Virus record (IMG/VR): IMGVR_UViG_3300024348_000190
Span: 1 to 28,054 of that record
DNA length: 28,054 bases
Direction: 5' to 3' (one strand)
Source of the DNA: a virus
This document shows positions 8-11,795 of this stretch, piece after piece. The position numbers and the translations under genes were made by a program. Numbering within the stretch: position 1 is the first letter of the stretch; every line of letters begins with the position of its first letter. The notes under the pieces are model-generated. The model was not told the DNA's origin, made no database searches, and saw only the letters and a program-made list of their open reading frames with translations.

Positions 8-418
8 TTATAAACTAAATATTTTGTATTGATCGTTACTCCAGCTAATTGTGATGGAGATAGGACTAGCAGTAGCAGCTACTGGCAAACCTGTGGCTGT
101 ATCTATGTAGGCCAAAAGCCTTGATGTAGATCTAACTCCAGTATCCTTATATAAAACCAGATAGGCAAAACCGCTAGTCCCGTAATCTTCTACCGTAATA
201 TTATCAGCGTCAAAGACACCAGAAGCTGTTGTTTTTCCGGCTAGTAAACTAGTAGTTGCTGCGACTGAATCTTCACTAATGCTTGACAAGAATTCATGTG
301 TGCTTAAATTTACTGTATAAGTATTTTTTACTAACGCAATTTTTATATTATTGTCAGTCAAGTCAAATAGGCCCTCTAATAAGCCTTCTTTGCCTTTTGC
401 ATATAATGAATTAGCCAT
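8..418 (-). CDS. Small phage structural protein, unassigned family
   Basis: This 136-residue protein has a pattern seen in many tailed-phage late operons: an opening MANSLYAKGKE, then NIKIALVKNTYTVNL and a repeated beta-strand layout, a GVFDADNITVEDYG segment, LLAYIDTATGLPV, and a C-terminal ITISWSNDQYKIFSL. The family recurs next to capsid or tail genes in phage genomes as I remember them, but I know of no proven function. A beta-rich virion protein (head-tail joining, tail or decoration) is the best guess. The ATG overlaps the TAA of the preceding gene by one base (TAATG), which implies translational coupling. The stop lies 7 bases from the window edge, so the operon probably continues to the left. 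Confidence 0.8.
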   Translation of the reverse strand: MANSLYAKGKEGLLEGLFDLTDNNIKIALVKNTYTVNLSTHEFLSSISEDSVAATTSLLAGKTTASGVFDADNITVEDYGTSGFAYLVLYKDTGVRSTSRLLAYIDTATGLPVAATASPISITISWSNDQYKIFSL

Positions 419-1191
419 TATATGCCGACTTCCGAAGAGACAATAACTCTATATTTATATCCAGTCTCGAAATAAGTTTTGCTATCTGTGTAGTAAACCG
501 GAGTTGCGTCGGTAGATGGAAAATCTATATAAACATCTGGTTTCCATGAATGCATGGAAACTTGAGCCGGAAGTGCTTCCCATCTGGTTGGCGTTTTTTG
601 TATCTTCTTACGTTGTGCTTTAAAATACTTACTGGTTAAAAAGTTTGATGCTGGGCGAGAACTAAATGAGATAATAGTTCTTCCATTATTCTCATCATTT
701 CCTATATAAAAATCTCCATTATTTGGACTGACAGATTCTATATAGAAATTAGGATTTTTAGCTAATATTTGATAACCAGTTTCAATATCTGTTCTAATAG
801 ATTTATCTTCTACTAAAACTTCATTTAAAACAGTAGCTTTACTTTCCTGTAGGATTGACGGAGTTGCTGACTGTGTTTGACTCGTGAAACTGATTCTTTC
901 TTCAGGGATAGTCATACCCGAGGAATCTAGTAAATTTTGAACGCGGACAACATAGTCTATATTACCGGATAGAATGACATCCCAATATAAAGTTAAAGTT
1001 CTACTAATCTGATTATAATCAGTAATAGTGTTAATAGTCCTAAATGGGGAATTTATCTGAACAGGTGTAGCTGCGTCAGTATATACTAAAAAATTTGCAT
1101 CAACTAAGGATGCTATTTTAATAGTCCTACCGAATTTAATATTAACAGTATTAACGCTTACTGTAGCGTTATCAATAAGATATAAGGCCAC
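418..1191 (-). CDS. Putative beta-rich phage structural protein
   Basis: This 257-residue protein has no family I can name. It is rich in beta-strand-like Thr/Ser/Val stretches, and parts look Ig- or fibronectin-like (for example TLYWDVILSGNIDYVVRV and the C-terminal FETGYKYRVIVSS). That fits an exposed virion protein. The start is GTG at 1191: a GGAG Shine-Dalgarno sits 8 bases upstream (complement of 1200-1203). It is the first gene after the terminator that closes the capsid unit, so it needs read-through or its own promoter; I could not see a convincing promoter in 1192-1240. It ends in a one-base overlap with the next gene. A neck, tail or fibre-associated role is inference from context only. 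Confidence 0.7.
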   Translation of the reverse strand: MALYLIDNATVSVNTVNIKFGRTIKIASLVDANFLVYTDAATPVQINSPFRTINTITDYNQISRTLTLYWDVILSGNIDYVVRVQNLLDSSGMTIPEERISFTSQTQSATPSILQESKATVLNEVLVEDKSIRTDIETGYQILAKNPNFYIESVSPNNGDFYIGNDENNGRTIISFSSRPASNFLTSKYFKAQRKKIQKTPTRWEALPAQVSMHSWKPDVYIDFPSTDATPVYYTDSKTYFETGYKYRVIVSSEVGI

Positions 1192-1240
1192 TCAACACAC
1201 TCCAAATTCAAAACCTATTGTAATAGTAATAAATCAATTC

Positions 1241-1281
1241 AATAAAAAGCAGAGGGGGCAGTAGATTTCTCTACCGCCCCC
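1241..1281 (-). terminator. Rho-independent terminator after the capsid gene
   Basis: Read on the minus strand, an 11-base stem (GGGGGCGGTAG pairing with CTACTGCCCCC, one G-U pair) closes a 6-base loop and is followed by TCTGCTTTTTATT. The arms are 1271-1281 and 1254-1264, and the T-rich tail is at 1241-1250. The very GC-rich stem and the T run in AT-rich surroundings make this a textbook intrinsic terminator. It lies 45 bases after the capsid stop codon, so it ends or attenuates the head-gene transcript before the two leftmost genes. Confidence 0.92.
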
Positions 1282-1298
1282 AAGCTTCAGGGTAATTT

Positions 1299-1320
1299 GT
1301 AACTATAACGACCCTAAGGT
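1299..1320 (-). other. 23S rRNA helix-69 / I-CeuI-like sequence in capsid mRNA 3'UTR (antisense)
   Basis: On the plus strand these 22 bases read GTAACTATAACG, then AC, then CCTAAGGT. As remembered, bacterial 23S rRNA around helix 69 (about E. coli 1910-1931) reads the same except for GT in place of AC, giving 20 of 22 identities. That rRNA segment is also the core of the I-CeuI homing endonuclease site. The similarity stops abruptly on both sides, so this is not an rRNA gene fragment of useful length. Because the capsid transcript is made from the other strand, the mRNA would be antisense to the rRNA. The two mismatched positions become G-U wobbles, so all 22 positions could pair. Function is unknown. 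Confidence 0.6.
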
Positions 1321-1325
1321 TTCTA

Positions 1326-2384
1326 TCAGGCTATGTCGTTAGTAACCTGTACTTCGTAGTTACGGCTGAGTCTGACGTTCTTAGCAACAGTGATACCTTC
1401 ACCATCACCCAGCATCACGATGTCGTAACGCTCTTTCATCTTGAGCTGGCGAATATCGCGGCCCGGATCGTCGAACTGATCGGTACTCATCTCGTCTTTG
1501 ACGAGAAGTGTTCCGACTTCATTACGGTCGATGAGGAAGAGGTCTGATTTAGCTGCTGTTGCACCACTCTTAGCCGTGAAGCTAACGAAAGGAGAAACAA
1601 TAACGTTCAATCCCATAGGGGCAGTCTGATTCAATGCGCCATCTGCAGACTGGGGACGATAGCCCCAGCTTGTTCCAACGCCCGATGCTGCGCCACCTTG
1701 ATGGAAGACGGCATCCTTGAGGAAGATCGACCACATGAGGGGGTGTAGAATAAAGTCTGTTGGAATATGGTTTTCAGCCATGAGAACGGCAGCCATGTCG
1801 ATGATATCGTCCCACTTGACTGTCTTATTGGCAGCGCCATTAATGTCAAGACCGGTTGTGTCATCGTAGCCAGCGTCGTCGTTGTCAAAAACGATTGTAG
1901 CTGCATCTTTGAATCGGCTCAGAGCAATTTGCTCCTTAAGGCGAGCCATAGCACGGCCGGCTGCGCGAACATGCAGACCAACAATGTCCCAAAGTGAATC
2001 AGCGATTACTTCTTCCGTGAAAGAAAGCTTAACGCCCTTCTTCGAGACTTTGCCCTCTACCTGCTTTGCGAAAGCGAGTGCTTGTTCTGGATACTCTTGT
2101 CCTTCTGGGATCTCAGCAGCTTGAATAGCATTGACGGCCGGGAATTCCAATGAACGTCCCTTGCCGAGACGAACAGTGGAAAGCAATGGAGTCACTAAAA
2201 GCTGTGGCTCTGCTGCTTCTCTGAGCGTACGTGAGAGAACTTTCGGGAAAAGTGCTGCTGCGTCTGACGATGCAAAAGCTTCCTTAATTGTTACTCTATT
2301 TTCTGCGTCGATATACCCGTCCTCGGTCATTGCTGTCTCCCAAGCTGGGAGACCCGAGAGGAGCTCTTGGATTGTCTTAGTCAT
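1326..2384 (-). CDS. Major capsid protein, HK97 fold
   Basis: This 352-residue protein builds the icosahedral shell. The sequence follows HK97-fold phage capsid proteins: an N-terminal arm (about 1-60), then LLVTPLLSTVRLGKGRSLEF and PAVNAIQAAEIPEGQEYPEQ, a helix-rich spine and P domain (roughly 110-215), and the late motif MKERYDIVMLGDGEGITVAK near residue 320. The next upstream genes are protease-scaffold and candidate decoration protein, the usual capsid order. It has an AGGAGG Shine-Dalgarno (2397-2402) 12 bases before ATG, a rather long spacing. A strong terminator follows the gene. GC content is clearly higher than in flanking fibre genes, consistent with high expression or a different history. 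Confidence 0.92.
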   Translation of the reverse strand: MTKTIQELLSGLPAWETAMTEDGYIDAENRVTIKEAFASSDAAALFPKVLSRTLREAAEPQLLVTPLLSTVRLGKGRSLEFPAVNAIQAAEIPEGQEYPEQALAFAKQVEGKVSKKGVKLSFTEEVIADSLWDIVGLHVRAAGRAMARLKEQIALSRFKDAATIVFDNDDAGYDDTTGLDINGAANKTVKWDDIIDMAAVLMAENHIPTDFILHPLMWSIFLKDAVFHQGGAASGVGTSWGYRPQSADGALNQTAPMGLNVIVSPFVSFTAKSGATAAKSDLFLIDRNEVGTLLVKDEMSTDQFDDPGRDIRQLKMKERYDIVMLGDGEGITVAKNVRLSRNYEVQVTNDIA

Positions 2385-2422: not shown

Positions 2423-3199
2423 TTAGAGTGTCAGGTTGACGCGGAATGCACCAATGACATTAGTTACATCTAGATTCGAACGAATACCGAGCTTACCAGT
2501 ATTAGGACCAGCCTTGGTAAGTTCATAAACGGTCTTCAACGCACCCGGATCTGATGGAAGCTGCATGTAGCTGAGGAGGCCGTCATCAAAGTTTGTAGCA
2601 AACTTTTCGACTTCGACAACCTTACCTACTTGCAAGTAGCTGTATACGGAGCTGCTATCGAGGAAATCGGTAGCTGCAGCCAATACTGGACGTCCCATTA
2701 CGTCGGAACGAACTACTGAACCAACTGTCACGTTATTGTTAATGCCGCTGACCATTGGATACTCTACATAGCCGTGAGTGATAAATCCAGCACCTTGCGA
2801 GGTACCTTTATCGAAGGGTCTGTAAAGATCATACTGTGCGCAACCGATAGGAATCGAACGAGCAGGCACAGTGACTGTGTCAGTTGCTCCGGACGAGTAA
2901 GCGGGTGTTGCACCAGCTGTGGGGTCCCATGCTGTATTGCTCATGTCATCGCCCCATACCTTGCTTGAACCCGTACCGTTAGCAGGAACAATACGAGCGT
3001 CACCGTTAGCATCGGCTACAACTGAAAGGATGGTTCCCTTCGGGATGACAATCTCAAAACGATCATCTTCACTGTCGTAATACCATGTGGGTAGACCGGG
3101 GTGTGGCAACAAGTATGCTGCGGGGGCTATGCCCTCGGAAACAACGAAGCGACCAGAACCGGTCTTACTATGTACTTTGCGAAATTTTGCTAAACTCAT
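2423..3199 (-). CDS. Candidate head decoration / structural protein
   Basis: This 258-residue beta-rich protein sits between the protease-scaffold gene and the capsid gene, where lambda-like phages encode the shell-stabilising decoration protein. Segments such as VSEGIAPAAYLLPHPGLPTW, IPKGTILSVVADANGD, IPIGCAQYDLYRPFDKGTSQ and GFITHGYVEYPMVSG resemble an unnamed structural family that I associate with capsid genes of tailed phages. There is no signal peptide or membrane helix. An AAGGAG Shine-Dalgarno lies 7 bases before ATG. GC content matches the capsid gene rather than the AT-rich fibre genes, so the two probably share high expression. Decoration is inferred from position; another virion role is possible. 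Confidence 0.75.
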   Translation of the reverse strand: MSLAKFRKVHSKTGSGRFVVSEGIAPAAYLLPHPGLPTWYYDSEDDRFEIVIPKGTILSVVADANGDARIVPANGTGSSKVWGDDMSNTAWDPTAGATPAYSSGATDTVTVPARSIPIGCAQYDLYRPFDKGTSQGAGFITHGYVEYPMVSGINNNVTVGSVVRSDVMGRPVLAAATDFLDSSSVYSYLQVGKVVEVEKFATNFDDGLLSYMQLPSDPGALKTVYELTKAGPNTGKLGIRSNLDVTNVIGAFRVNLTL

Positions 3200-9299: not shown

Positions 9300-9626
9300 T
9301 TAATGTTCAGTTGATTCATCAAACGGAGGGGGCGTACTTGTGTCGAATATATCCCTACGTCCATTCATAACTTCTAATGAATAATCAGAATTATTATTTA
9401 CAAATTCTTTTAGTTCTTCAATTGAATGAATTTTAATATTAAAAAAGTTAATTGATTCTTCTGTCAAATTTGAAAAATCAAAATCATCATCAACTTTGGA
9501 AATAGATAATTGACCAAAATAAGAATTAAGTAAAAAGAATGTTTTATCACTATGCGGGAAAAGGGTACCTAAAGTTTCGTATATATTTATATTATTCTTA
9601 TATTGACAAAACGTTACATATTTCAT
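9300..9626 (-). CDS. Short paralogue of the following gene's N-terminus
   Basis: This protein has 108 residues. Its first 80 residues align with the first 78 of the next gene: MKYVTF versus MKYITF, INIYETL versus INIYDVL, ISKVDDDF versus VSQVDDNF, then the identical ESINFFNIKI. The DNA is also alike there (for example tttaatattaaaaaa and ttaattgattc in both). It ends in a short proline-rich, acidic tail instead of the large C-terminal region. This is a tandem duplication followed by loss or gain of the C-terminal part. The ribosome site is weak (GGATGA). Function is unknown. Confidence 0.7.
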   Translation of the reverse strand: MKYVTFCQYKNNINIYETLGTLFPHSDKTFFLLNSYFGQLSISKVDDDFDFSNLTEESINFFNIKIHSIEELKEFVNNNSDYSLEVMNGRRDIFDTSTPPPFDESTEH

Positions 9627-9632
9627 TTTTTT

Positions 9633-11795
9633 TTAATCATCCAATGTTTCATAGGTTGCTTGTAGTTGCACTTCTGTTATTGTAGCATAGTATAGATTAT
9701 CGCCCGAATAAAGAGCTGAATCTATATCGAAAGATATATTATACGGTGGAGAGTTTAGCGCATCTGGAGTTACTATATATGTCTCATATGCCGACAGATT
9801 ATTTATATCACCATATTGTGTATAATTGATTCCATCAACAACAAGACTAGATATTCGAGGTGAACCAGTAGGGCCAACCCTAATGGAGAACTTATATAGT
9901 TTTGCATTCCTATGACCATCGGGTAATGACGGAGTAAAGTTTGCCGAGAATGATTCTGTCACTCTGGATGATACTTTGGTAGTTGTAGGAATCGTATATG
10001 TCGCAGATCCTGATGCCACAGAGAGTGGAACATCAGCTCCATATTCACCATCGGTTTGTGTAAAGTAGTTATCTGCCGCTGATGTATAATTACTAGTTCC
10101 ACCAAAAACGCTAACATCATTACCAGCTGTTTTGTAAACAAATAAGGTGCCACCAAAAGAGTTAGTATTGTTAGCTGGCGTTGTTCCTCTTGGTGCTAAA
10201 AATACCGTTGATCCAGAAGACGACATCACAAAGTATCGTTGATTAAAGGCGCTATTACTGCTACTTACAACGGTAACCTCATCTGCGTATTGTAGAATAC
10301 ATCTTGAATCTGACTCTAAAGCCAGTATGACATATGGTGAGTACGCGGTACTTCTTGCTATAGAAGAAATGCCATATCTCAAGCTAGTTACTGTCGTAGT
10401 GATTGATGGGTATGAGGATGAAATTGCGTGATTGGAGTCTAAAAAGTAAAGGTTTTGGGCATAATAGGCAGTGCGCGCAAAGGCTGTTATTACTTTAAAC
10501 TCCGTAGCAGTTCCAGATACATTACGATATGGATAAGAGAACCATATAGAACCTTGATTCCCATCTGAACCCATGGAAGAAGAATATCCTGAGGCGTTAG
10601 AACTCGATGTTGTACTACTGGCTGATATCCAGCCAGTAGTTTTAGTAGTCCATGTTTTTCCTCTTATTGCTTCAGTGTACTGTCCATTATTACTCCATGG
10701 CCCATATATCCCAAGGTCAGAATAATATACTCTTGCTCTAAATCGGTATTCTCTTGTTTGAACTACGGAGAAATTTTGTCCATAATAACTTGTACCAGTT
10801 CCGGTAACAACTTCAGTTCCAAGGAATGAAGTTGTACCTAGCCAGGCAAGATTACCCCTAGTTCTATATTGCCATTCCCACTGAATTTTTGCATTACCAT
10901 TATTGTATGCGTTAATATCAGTAAGAATAGGTAAATTAGTATCTGTAGTGCCATTAAAACCATCGAATCTGAATGGTATCATTGCAATATGAAGTGGATA
11001 CGTGCTTGTTGCACTAGAAAAAGAACTATAAATACTAGAAGAGTCTACTGGCGATCCATAGTAAGTTCTTGCACGACAATAGTATGGAGTGTTCGGCGTC
11101 AAGCCAGTAAATTGGACTGTTCTAGAAGCAGTTGTATTATCTAGGGGAAGAATACTACTATTAAGTACTTGTACCGGTGCACTTCCATTTTCTGTCCATA
11201 TCTCAAATCGAATATATGCTGCAGCTCCGTTAGTCGAATAGTTGGAGCTAGAGCTTGATGAAAATGACAGTTTTGTGGAACTGATTGTTCCTGTATTTGT
11301 TGGTGTTGTTGGAGTTGTTTTTGAATAGGATGCTGTTGAGGCATCGAGTGTTGATACTGCACTAAATTCTACAAAAGTTCCCTCTGCGTCATAGAACGCG
11401 ATGTAGCTAGAAAAGTTATAGGACGTTCCTGGACTTAGATCAGAAAAAGTAAATGTTTGATTTATTGCGCTGGTTGTTGGATCAACTGGGCTACTTTGAA
11501 AATTCCCTGAGTTACTTGTTCTATAAGCATAAACTTTTTTGTTATCAGAACCTGATGCTATGACTCTCACAGTAACAGAAGTTGGAGTTGCGCTTACAAA
11601 GCTAAACGCTGGAGGAGTGTTGCTTGTTATTCTTGAATAAAAAGTTTTCCATGCACTTCCATCATATATCTCTCCCTTATTAACATTAGTGAATGTGGCA
11701 TCTCCTGTAGTAGGGTTAACTGCAGTGCATATTTCTGGATCACTTATTGTTTGCCAGTCATTTGTTCCGGTGCCGGTTCTAATTTGTATAGTCAT
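9633..11795 (-). CDS. Fibronectin type III-containing tail/fibre protein
   Basis: This 720-residue protein is Ser/Thr/Tyr-rich. The start (MTIQIRTGTGTNDWQTISDP and later GEIYDGSAWKTFYSR) is a short beta domain common at the head of phage tail proteins. At least two fibronectin-type III-like domains follow (about 60-155 and 160-275), with the characteristic LSPGTSYNF and LTPNTPYYCRARTYY. A third Ig-like region lies near 275-375. The last 150 residues look like a jelly-roll. Such domains mediate weak surface binding on virions. The start has AAGGA 6 bases upstream. No enzymatic motif is visible. It is likely a virion surface or fibre component; the exact tail location is unknown. Confidence 0.8.
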   Translation of the reverse strand: MTIQIRTGTGTNDWQTISDPEICTAVNPTTGDATFTNVNKGEIYDGSAWKTFYSRITSNTPPAFSFVSATPTSVTVRVIASGSDNKKVYAYRTSNSGNFQSSPVDPTTSAINQTFTFSDLSPGTSYNFSSYIAFYDAEGTFVEFSAVSTLDASTASYSKTTPTTPTNTGTISSTKLSFSSSSSSNYSTNGAAAYIRFEIWTENGSAPVQVLNSSILPLDNTTASRTVQFTGLTPNTPYYCRARTYYGSPVDSSSIYSSFSSATSTYPLHIAMIPFRFDGFNGTTDTNLPILTDINAYNNGNAKIQWEWQYRTRGNLAWLGTTSFLGTEVVTGTGTSYYGQNFSVVQTREYRFRARVYYSDLGIYGPWSNNGQYTEAIRGKTWTTKTTGWISASSTTSSSNASGYSSSMGSDGNQGSIWFSYPYRNVSGTATEFKVITAFARTAYYAQNLYFLDSNHAISSSYPSITTTVTSLRYGISSIARSTAYSPYVILALESDSRCILQYADEVTVVSSSNSAFNQRYFVMSSSGSTVFLAPRGTTPANNTNSFGGTLFVYKTAGNDVSVFGGTSNYTSAADNYFTQTDGEYGADVPLSVASGSATYTIPTTTKVSSRVTESFSANFTPSLPDGHRNAKLYKFSIRVGPTGSPRISSLVVDGINYTQYGDINNLSAYETYIVTPDALNSPPYNISFDIDSALYSGDNLYYATITEVQLQATYETLDD

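Follow-up and report, generated by a model that had tools for sequence, protein, structure and literature searches.

The locus studied here raises the question of why a phage capsid mRNA should carry, just behind its stop codon, a sequence complementary to bacterial 23S rRNA, and whether this complementarity is selected or accidental. The window, that is the whole stretch of DNA analysed, comprises 28,054 nt (IMG/VR record IMGVR_UViG_3300024348_000190, positions 1-28,054).

A capsid 3'UTR complementary to helix 69 of 23S rRNA

The major capsid protein gene of the window (352 aa; 1326..2384, minus strand) was identified as an ORF matching the PHROG 3922 major head protein (E=1.3e-27), and a homology search related its product to the capsids of Bacillus, Moorella and Acinetobacter phages. 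Its stop codon at 1328-1326 is followed by an intrinsic terminator, recognized by sequence and fold as the stem-loop GGGGGCGGUAGA-GAAA-UCUACUGCCCCC (1254..1281, minus strand) with a U-tract at 1248-1244. Between stop codon and terminator, where the preliminary description had placed it, lies a 22-mer that reads GTAACTATAACGACCCTAAGGT on the plus strand (1299-1320) and ACCUUAGGGUCGUUAUAGUUAC in the mRNA (1299..1320, minus strand). The mRNA past the stop codon thus runs UAGAA-ACCUUAGGGUCGUUAUAGUUAC-AAAUUACCCUGAAGCUU, then into the strong terminator. The 22-mer is present in a single copy; neither a search of the window at up to three mismatches nor 100 shuffles gave a further match, in line with the initial estimate that chance matches in the window would be far below one. 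Beyond the terminator, a TTATTACTATTA motif (1221..1232, minus strand), likely a phage late promoter and also present 29-55 nt upstream of several genes in the relative G001, lies upstream of the next gene (257 aa; 418..1191, minus strand), an ORF with no PHROG match. Its TTACTATT form, shared with sites about 30-55 nt upstream of several G001 genes (28885, 32382, 36879, 132494) and probably the phage late promoter, resembles the sense loop of helix 69 (H69) at 8/10 bases, perhaps by coincidence. The window also encodes a Clp/ATP-dependent protease ATPase homologue (26385-27830, minus strand; PHROG 4871, E=4e-104), which lies near structural genes in G001 too.

The 23S sequence had been given as the same bases with GT in place of AC, and annotated 23S genes are indeed identical to the 22-mer at 20 of its 22 positions. 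As pairing targets we used complete actinobacterial rRNA operons, verified with Rfam. The mRNA-strand 22-mer paired at 22/22 positions (20 Watson-Crick and 2 G-U) with two 23S genes of the GGT type, both differences becoming G-U pairs as predicted, and at 21/22 with one of the CAT type. The next-best site in the operon gave 17-18 pairs, and shuffled 22-mers averaged 16.95 and never exceeded 18. We take the target segment to be 23S positions 1910-1931 in E. coli numbering. The helix 69 label holds for 1910-1924, the loop of H69 with its 3' strand; from there to 1931 the segment is linker leading to H70/71.

The element is made of two blocks and a spacer, all on the minus strand. Block 1, CCUUAGG (1313..1319), begins 6 nt past the capsid stop codon (CCTTAGG at 1319) and is complementary to 23S 1924-1930, while block 2, GUUAUAGUUAC (1299..1309), is complementary to the H69 loop and its closing pairs (1910-1920). 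Both blocks face universal 23S positions. The spacer, GUC in the window (1310..1312), faces 1921-1923, and these positions, opposite the part that varies in phages, also vary among Actinomycetota (GGT, CAT, CGT). By our own arithmetic, 17 fixed bases whose spacing may take five values would match somewhere in a 5.1-kb rRNA operon with a probability of about 1.5e-6.

The element is conserved in related phages while its flanks vary

The exact 22-mer was present in 55 other IMG/VR contigs; contigs in this database are mostly fragments. For the conservation test we used capsid relatives at about 85-100% identity and required of a conforming 3'UTR the block CCTTAGG (or TCTTAGG, ACTTAGG, CCTTAAG, ACTTAGA, CCTTGGG), then a spacer, then TTATAGTTAC, in which up to two changes were tolerated. 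The element lay directly behind the capsid stop in 76 of the 77 distinct 3'UTRs of related phages, beginning 0-15 nt past the stop codon in conforming 3'UTRs, with a single exception at 27 nt. Spacer length ranged from 2 to 9 nt among relatives (spacers as listed for the 77 3'UTRs count the G preceding TTATAG), and the spacer was sometimes non-complementary to 23S rRNA, as with GUAG, GAAG and one 9-nt spacer. The terminator stem, the right arm of the hairpin described below and the flanks varied freely. This is the pattern that the preliminary description had proposed to look for in related phages, and it supports the suggestion made there of an rRNA-targeting 3'UTR RNA. The carriers are a large group of freshwater phages with the hairpin just behind the main shell-protein gene. 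The GAAA tetraloop of the capsid terminator (usually GAGAAATC; window 1266-1269, minus strand) is kept in most relatives, and the stem around it is almost wholly replaced.

Across 29 divergent representatives, pairwise identity was 0.91 in the 17-nt core versus 0.47 at fourfold capsid sites, and the core was the less conserved of the two in 0/351 pairs. Column conservation was 0.76-1.00 in block 1 and 0.86-1.00 in TTATAGTTAC. Synonymous capsid sites are near saturation while the element is kept. None of 28 relatives, the largest of 194 kb, had more than one copy, sense or antisense, when both strands were searched at up to two mismatches (21 of them matched at that level), so the phage itself offers no pairing partner for the element. 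Firmicutes relatives did not have the element, nor did the cultured phages whose capsids are 25-45% identical (Bacillus KLEB27-3, Moorella MTATph1, Acinetobacter ME3). Its absence from Bacillus, Moorella and Acinetobacter phages at 40-45% capsid identity counts against the antisense explanation.

The same bases had been read as the core of the I-CeuI site, which raised the possibility of a homing endonuclease target or decoy, or of a scar left by an rRNA intron. The segment does overlap the I-CeuI core, and bacterial loci, in many cases tRNA arrays, contain sense copies whose I-CeuI-like match is longer. However, the match ends at 1320 and is followed by TTCTAT, so the full I-CeuI site, which continues TAGCGA, is absent. 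A search for LAGLIDADG_1 and LAGLIDADG_3 domains (PF14528, PF00961) gave 0/12 among large relatives, with the controls detected. Moreover, a spacer of 2-9 nt would not be followed by a site-specific endonuclease, and the hairpin evolves by compensatory changes of the RNA type. Together these observations make a homing origin very improbable.

Rfam gave no match in the window at gathering score, the best sub-threshold hit being BjrC68 (24.8 versus 39 bits). INPHARED matches to a 42-mer were 23S contamination or, in one Pectobacterium phage, a CDS match, and the one IMG/VR contig with exact 23S antisense proved to be a real 23S gene. A genome scan for exact host 23S (..NNCCC..) returned one true 23S, with GGCCC, and 14 loci that are not 23S by Rfam. 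These 14 bacterial loci (L263-L272, L274-L277; e.g. L264:2141-2161, minus strand) carry GTAACTATAACGNCCCTAAGGTAGCGA and a conserved extension, for which there was no Rfam match; eight are cyanobacterial, the others belong to Saprospiraceae, Verrucomicrobia, Myxococcota, Archangiaceae and Catenulispora, and many are tRNA arrays. By sequence they mimic H69-H71 of 23S in the sense orientation, a mimicry so far unrecognised, and some are exactly complementary to the phage element.

A covarying hairpin whose core substitutions tend to retain pairing with 23S rRNA

The 82-nt 3'UTR folds into two hairpins (-35.6 kcal/mol, z=-5.68), the second of which is the terminator. In the first, UUAGGGU pairs with ACCCUGA (1317-1311 with 1293-1287; 3' arm at 1287..1293, minus strand, assigned by fold and compensatory changes). 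The 3' part of block 1 doubles as the 5' arm of this stem, and block 2 forms the exposed, mostly unpaired loop. Stable hairpins and an intrinsic terminator with a U-tract right behind the stop codon are what is seen in 3'UTR-derived small RNAs of the phiKZ type. Among relatives the stem changes in a compensatory manner (GGGT/ACCC, GGGC/GCCC, GGGA/TCCC, GACTGT/ACAGTC, GGATAG/CTATCC, CTTAGAA/TTCTAAG) while the loop is unchanged. We measured covariation by arm swapping, because MAFFT set the right arms of short hairpins out of register; own right arms paired better than swapped arms in 200/200 shuffles. The element is therefore conserved by selection as RNA, as a covarying hairpin before the terminator. 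This local hairpin competes with the 23S duplex and accounts for part of the CCUUAGG conservation.

Within the whole 16S-23S-5S operon, the best duplex was at H69 for 29/29 divergent variants with GGT-type 23S, although their spacers vary in length and sequence. Duplex dG at H69 was -18 to -37 kcal/mol for the 29 variants versus -20.7 +- 1.6 for shuffles, and 27/29 variants beat the best shuffle, with GGT-type and likewise with CAT-type 23S. Core changes were inferred by parsimony on the capsid tree. Pairing with 23S rRNA was retained in 14 of the 23 changes, all via G-U, against a uniform expectation of 7/51 (p=2e-7), and in 13 of the 17 transitions against 7/17 (p=0.003); both p-values are approximate, since the binomial tests assume uniform mutation. 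The hairpin does not account for several of the pairing-retaining substitutions, which fall on bases that it leaves unpaired.

An alternative is that the hairpin loop binds a phage or host protein, for capsid autoregulation or RNA stability, and that its complementarity to 23S rRNA is accidental. The real covarying hairpin with its invariant loop favours this reading. Yet 17 fixed bases at the right spacing match one rRNA site (chance about 1e-6, own arithmetic), substitutions at unpaired positions retain 23S pairing by G-U, and the word recurs in unrelated RNA folds (see below), which leaves protein binding improbable. As for an RNA antisense to rRNA, the best complementarity in the operon lies at one functional site, above shuffles, and substitutions preserve it. 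We conclude that the element is a genuine RNA feature directed at 23S H69. Its complementarity to 23S rRNA is very probably the selected property, and we infer, with good support, that it would act through base-pairing with 23S rRNA.

The same antisense word occurs in other phage RNAs

Scanning for CCTTAGGA-N(1-6)-TTATAGTTAC retrieved 53 contigs, versus 3 with a reversed-pattern control. Most of the 53 belong to the same capsid clade as the window. Five contigs carry an unrelated capsid (PHROG 1623, 1.6e-82), with the element 1-2 nt past the stop codon and a terminator behind it. The nearest cultured relatives of these capsids are those of Streptomyces phages (49%), and the element was not found in Streptomyces phages with a PHROG 1623 capsid. 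Because the PHROG 1623-type carriers have some tail or fibre genes in common with the window's clade, exchange and convergence are equally possible.

Other carriers hold the word in free-standing stem-loops. A 12-bp stem closes the loop holding the element in the L412 group (6 contigs). L451 (around 2674-2696, minus strand) has a 13-bp outer stem and a U-run and adjoins a tRNA; L453 (around 9617-9639, minus strand) has a 12-bp outer stem and a U-run ahead of a tRNA cluster. L434 and L444 also hold the element in stem-loop RNAs, and the enclosing stems of all these exceed 99-100 of 100 shuffles. The enclosing-stem score was clearly significant only for L412, L415, L424, L434, L444, L451 and L453. 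By this simple score L413, L442, L454, L419 and L449 were not significant; L449 and L419 have local structure that it did not single out. Two of the three reversed-pattern control matches (one locus) also had moderate stems, and a few of the singleton carriers could be chance, about 3-10 such matches being expected. Apart from tRNAs, the other carriers had no Rfam match. The L451 and L453 RNAs are unannotated, structured and about 120 nt long, and combine the anti-H69 word with a position beside phage tRNA genes.

Pure coincidence had been listed among the first readings, and selective attention during that reading is the one thing that could favour it. It is rejected by conservation in 76/77 distinct 3'UTRs, by the duplex, core-identity and wobble-preserving substitution tests and by recurrence in unrelated contexts, and we consider its probability negligible.

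Probable hosts

WhiB is encoded in 4 of the 28 relatives, both of the ~194-kb ones included, and among control genomes the WhiB profile matches only Corynebacterium. This suggests that the hosts are probably Actinomycetota, an indirect assignment at phylum level. Among freshwater actinobacteria, Nanopelagicales are a group from which phages have been isolated (PMC10202952). RlmH adds an N3-methyl group to H69 loop base 1915, which would spoil the central pair. The enzyme is present in E. coli and B. subtilis and missing in 49 of 61 sampled Actinomycetota, where the H69 loop would be free to pair; we regard this as circumstantial support for pairing.

Candidate functions of the anti-H69 RNA

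H69 forms intersubunit bridge B2a with 16S h44 and is hidden in 70S ribosomes. Free 50S is therefore a plausible partner, and loss of subunit joining a plausible effect. The capsid mRNA 3'UTR would be a two-hairpin RNA whose first hairpin presents CCUUAGG-spacer-GUUAUAGUUAC against H69 and the adjoining 23S strand. Pairing with H69 on free 50S would take place late in infection and involve either the abundant capsid transcript itself or a short RNA cleaved from its 3' end, the loop starting a kissing contact from which the helix then extends. Bound 50S would stay out of 70S, so that free ribosomes would be parked or down-tuned and translating ones left untouched. PNA against H69 inhibits E. 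coli growth (PMC7038079), and in phiKZ an RNA of ~100 nt with two hairpins is processed out of a 3'UTR (PMC8545117). Given these two precedents and the bridge role of H69, we prefer a trans-acting, late, 3'UTR-derived RNA that would occupy H69 on free 50S and limit 70S formation as the likeliest function. We assign trans occupation of 50S as its main function only tentatively, and against it is the fact that the phage itself needs ribosomes, so that broad inhibition would cost it.

The element might instead pair in cis, capturing 50S released at termination for recycling, for preventing 70S run-on or for re-initiation near the capsid mRNA. The tight placement 0-15 nt past the stop in nearly all variants, the 1-2 nt distance behind the stop of an unrelated capsid and the capsid mRNA being the sole carrier within the genome all fit this, and the strict placement keeps a cis role in recycling or insulation possible. 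However, a 3'UTR-derived RNA would likewise sit just past the stop, and free-standing stem-loop RNAs that lie at a distance from stop codons and beside tRNA genes contain the same word (L451, L453, L412 group). We consider a cis role unlikely. The duplex could also mark 23S or pre-23S rRNA for cleavage, e.g. by RNase III, or block 50S maturation, so that new ribosomes are disabled or rRNA is recycled. A 20-22 bp duplex is in principle long enough for RNase III, and newly made 50S is without the late H69 modifications, but mismatches and bulges at the spacer in many variants argue against a required continuous dsRNA, and this reading is improbable. On balance, a two-hairpin antisense RNA against 23S H69, with putative occupation of 50S, is the explanation that we find somewhat probable overall.

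Relation to known systems and implications

BYDV-type plant-virus 3' translation enhancers are eukaryotic, target 18S rRNA and enhance cap-independent translation; they resemble the phage element as 3'UTR structures with an rRNA-complementary stretch, which in their case is short. The epsilon element of the T7 gene 10 leader is likewise a proposed rRNA complementarity in a phage capsid mRNA, but it lies in the 5' leader, is short, targets 16S rRNA and is disputed. To our knowledge, no natural RNA is directed at a 23S functional centre through extended base-pairing; the open-access literature searched contained none. Synthetic anti-H69 PNA (Kulik et al. 2017, as quoted in PMC7038079) is also antisense to H69, and the phage element would be its natural counterpart, encoded in a genome.

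The phiKZ PHIKZ298 ncRNA, found by Grad-seq (PMC8545117), likewise comes from the 3'UTR of a virion-protein gene and has two stem-loops, the second being the terminator, but host and sequence differ. PAK_P3 sRNA1 and sRNA2 and T4 RNAs C and D (PMC4933390; NC_000866) are small RNAs of virulent phages encoded partly beside tRNA genes, and PAK_P3 sRNA2 has been proposed to act on ribosomes (PMC4933390). Duplex scans of the T4, PAK_P3 and phiKZ RNAs gave no 23S target above shuffles, and the anti-H69 word was not found in T4. In T4 rnaC/rnaD (L457:1409-1672, minus strand) and PAK_P3 sRNA2 (L480:36344-36477) there are tRNA T-arm sequences resembling GGTTCGAATCC or GGTTCGATTCC. The element would act as antisense RNAs do and has the form of a phage sRNA derived from a 3'UTR; as far as we searched the open-access literature, its target class is new.

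It is quite possible, though a little less likely than not, that several unrelated phage lineages evolved or exchanged anti-H69 RNAs that remove 50S subunits, as a general RNA-based takeover of ribosomes. The H69-like sense RNAs in bacterial tRNA arrays might then be decoys against them. If the binding is real, it would be a new viral control of ribosomes by RNA instead of protein. H69 would be a target repeatedly chosen by phages, functions could be assigned to some unassigned phage RNAs, and the element would offer a natural template for the design of ribosome-directed antisense molecules.
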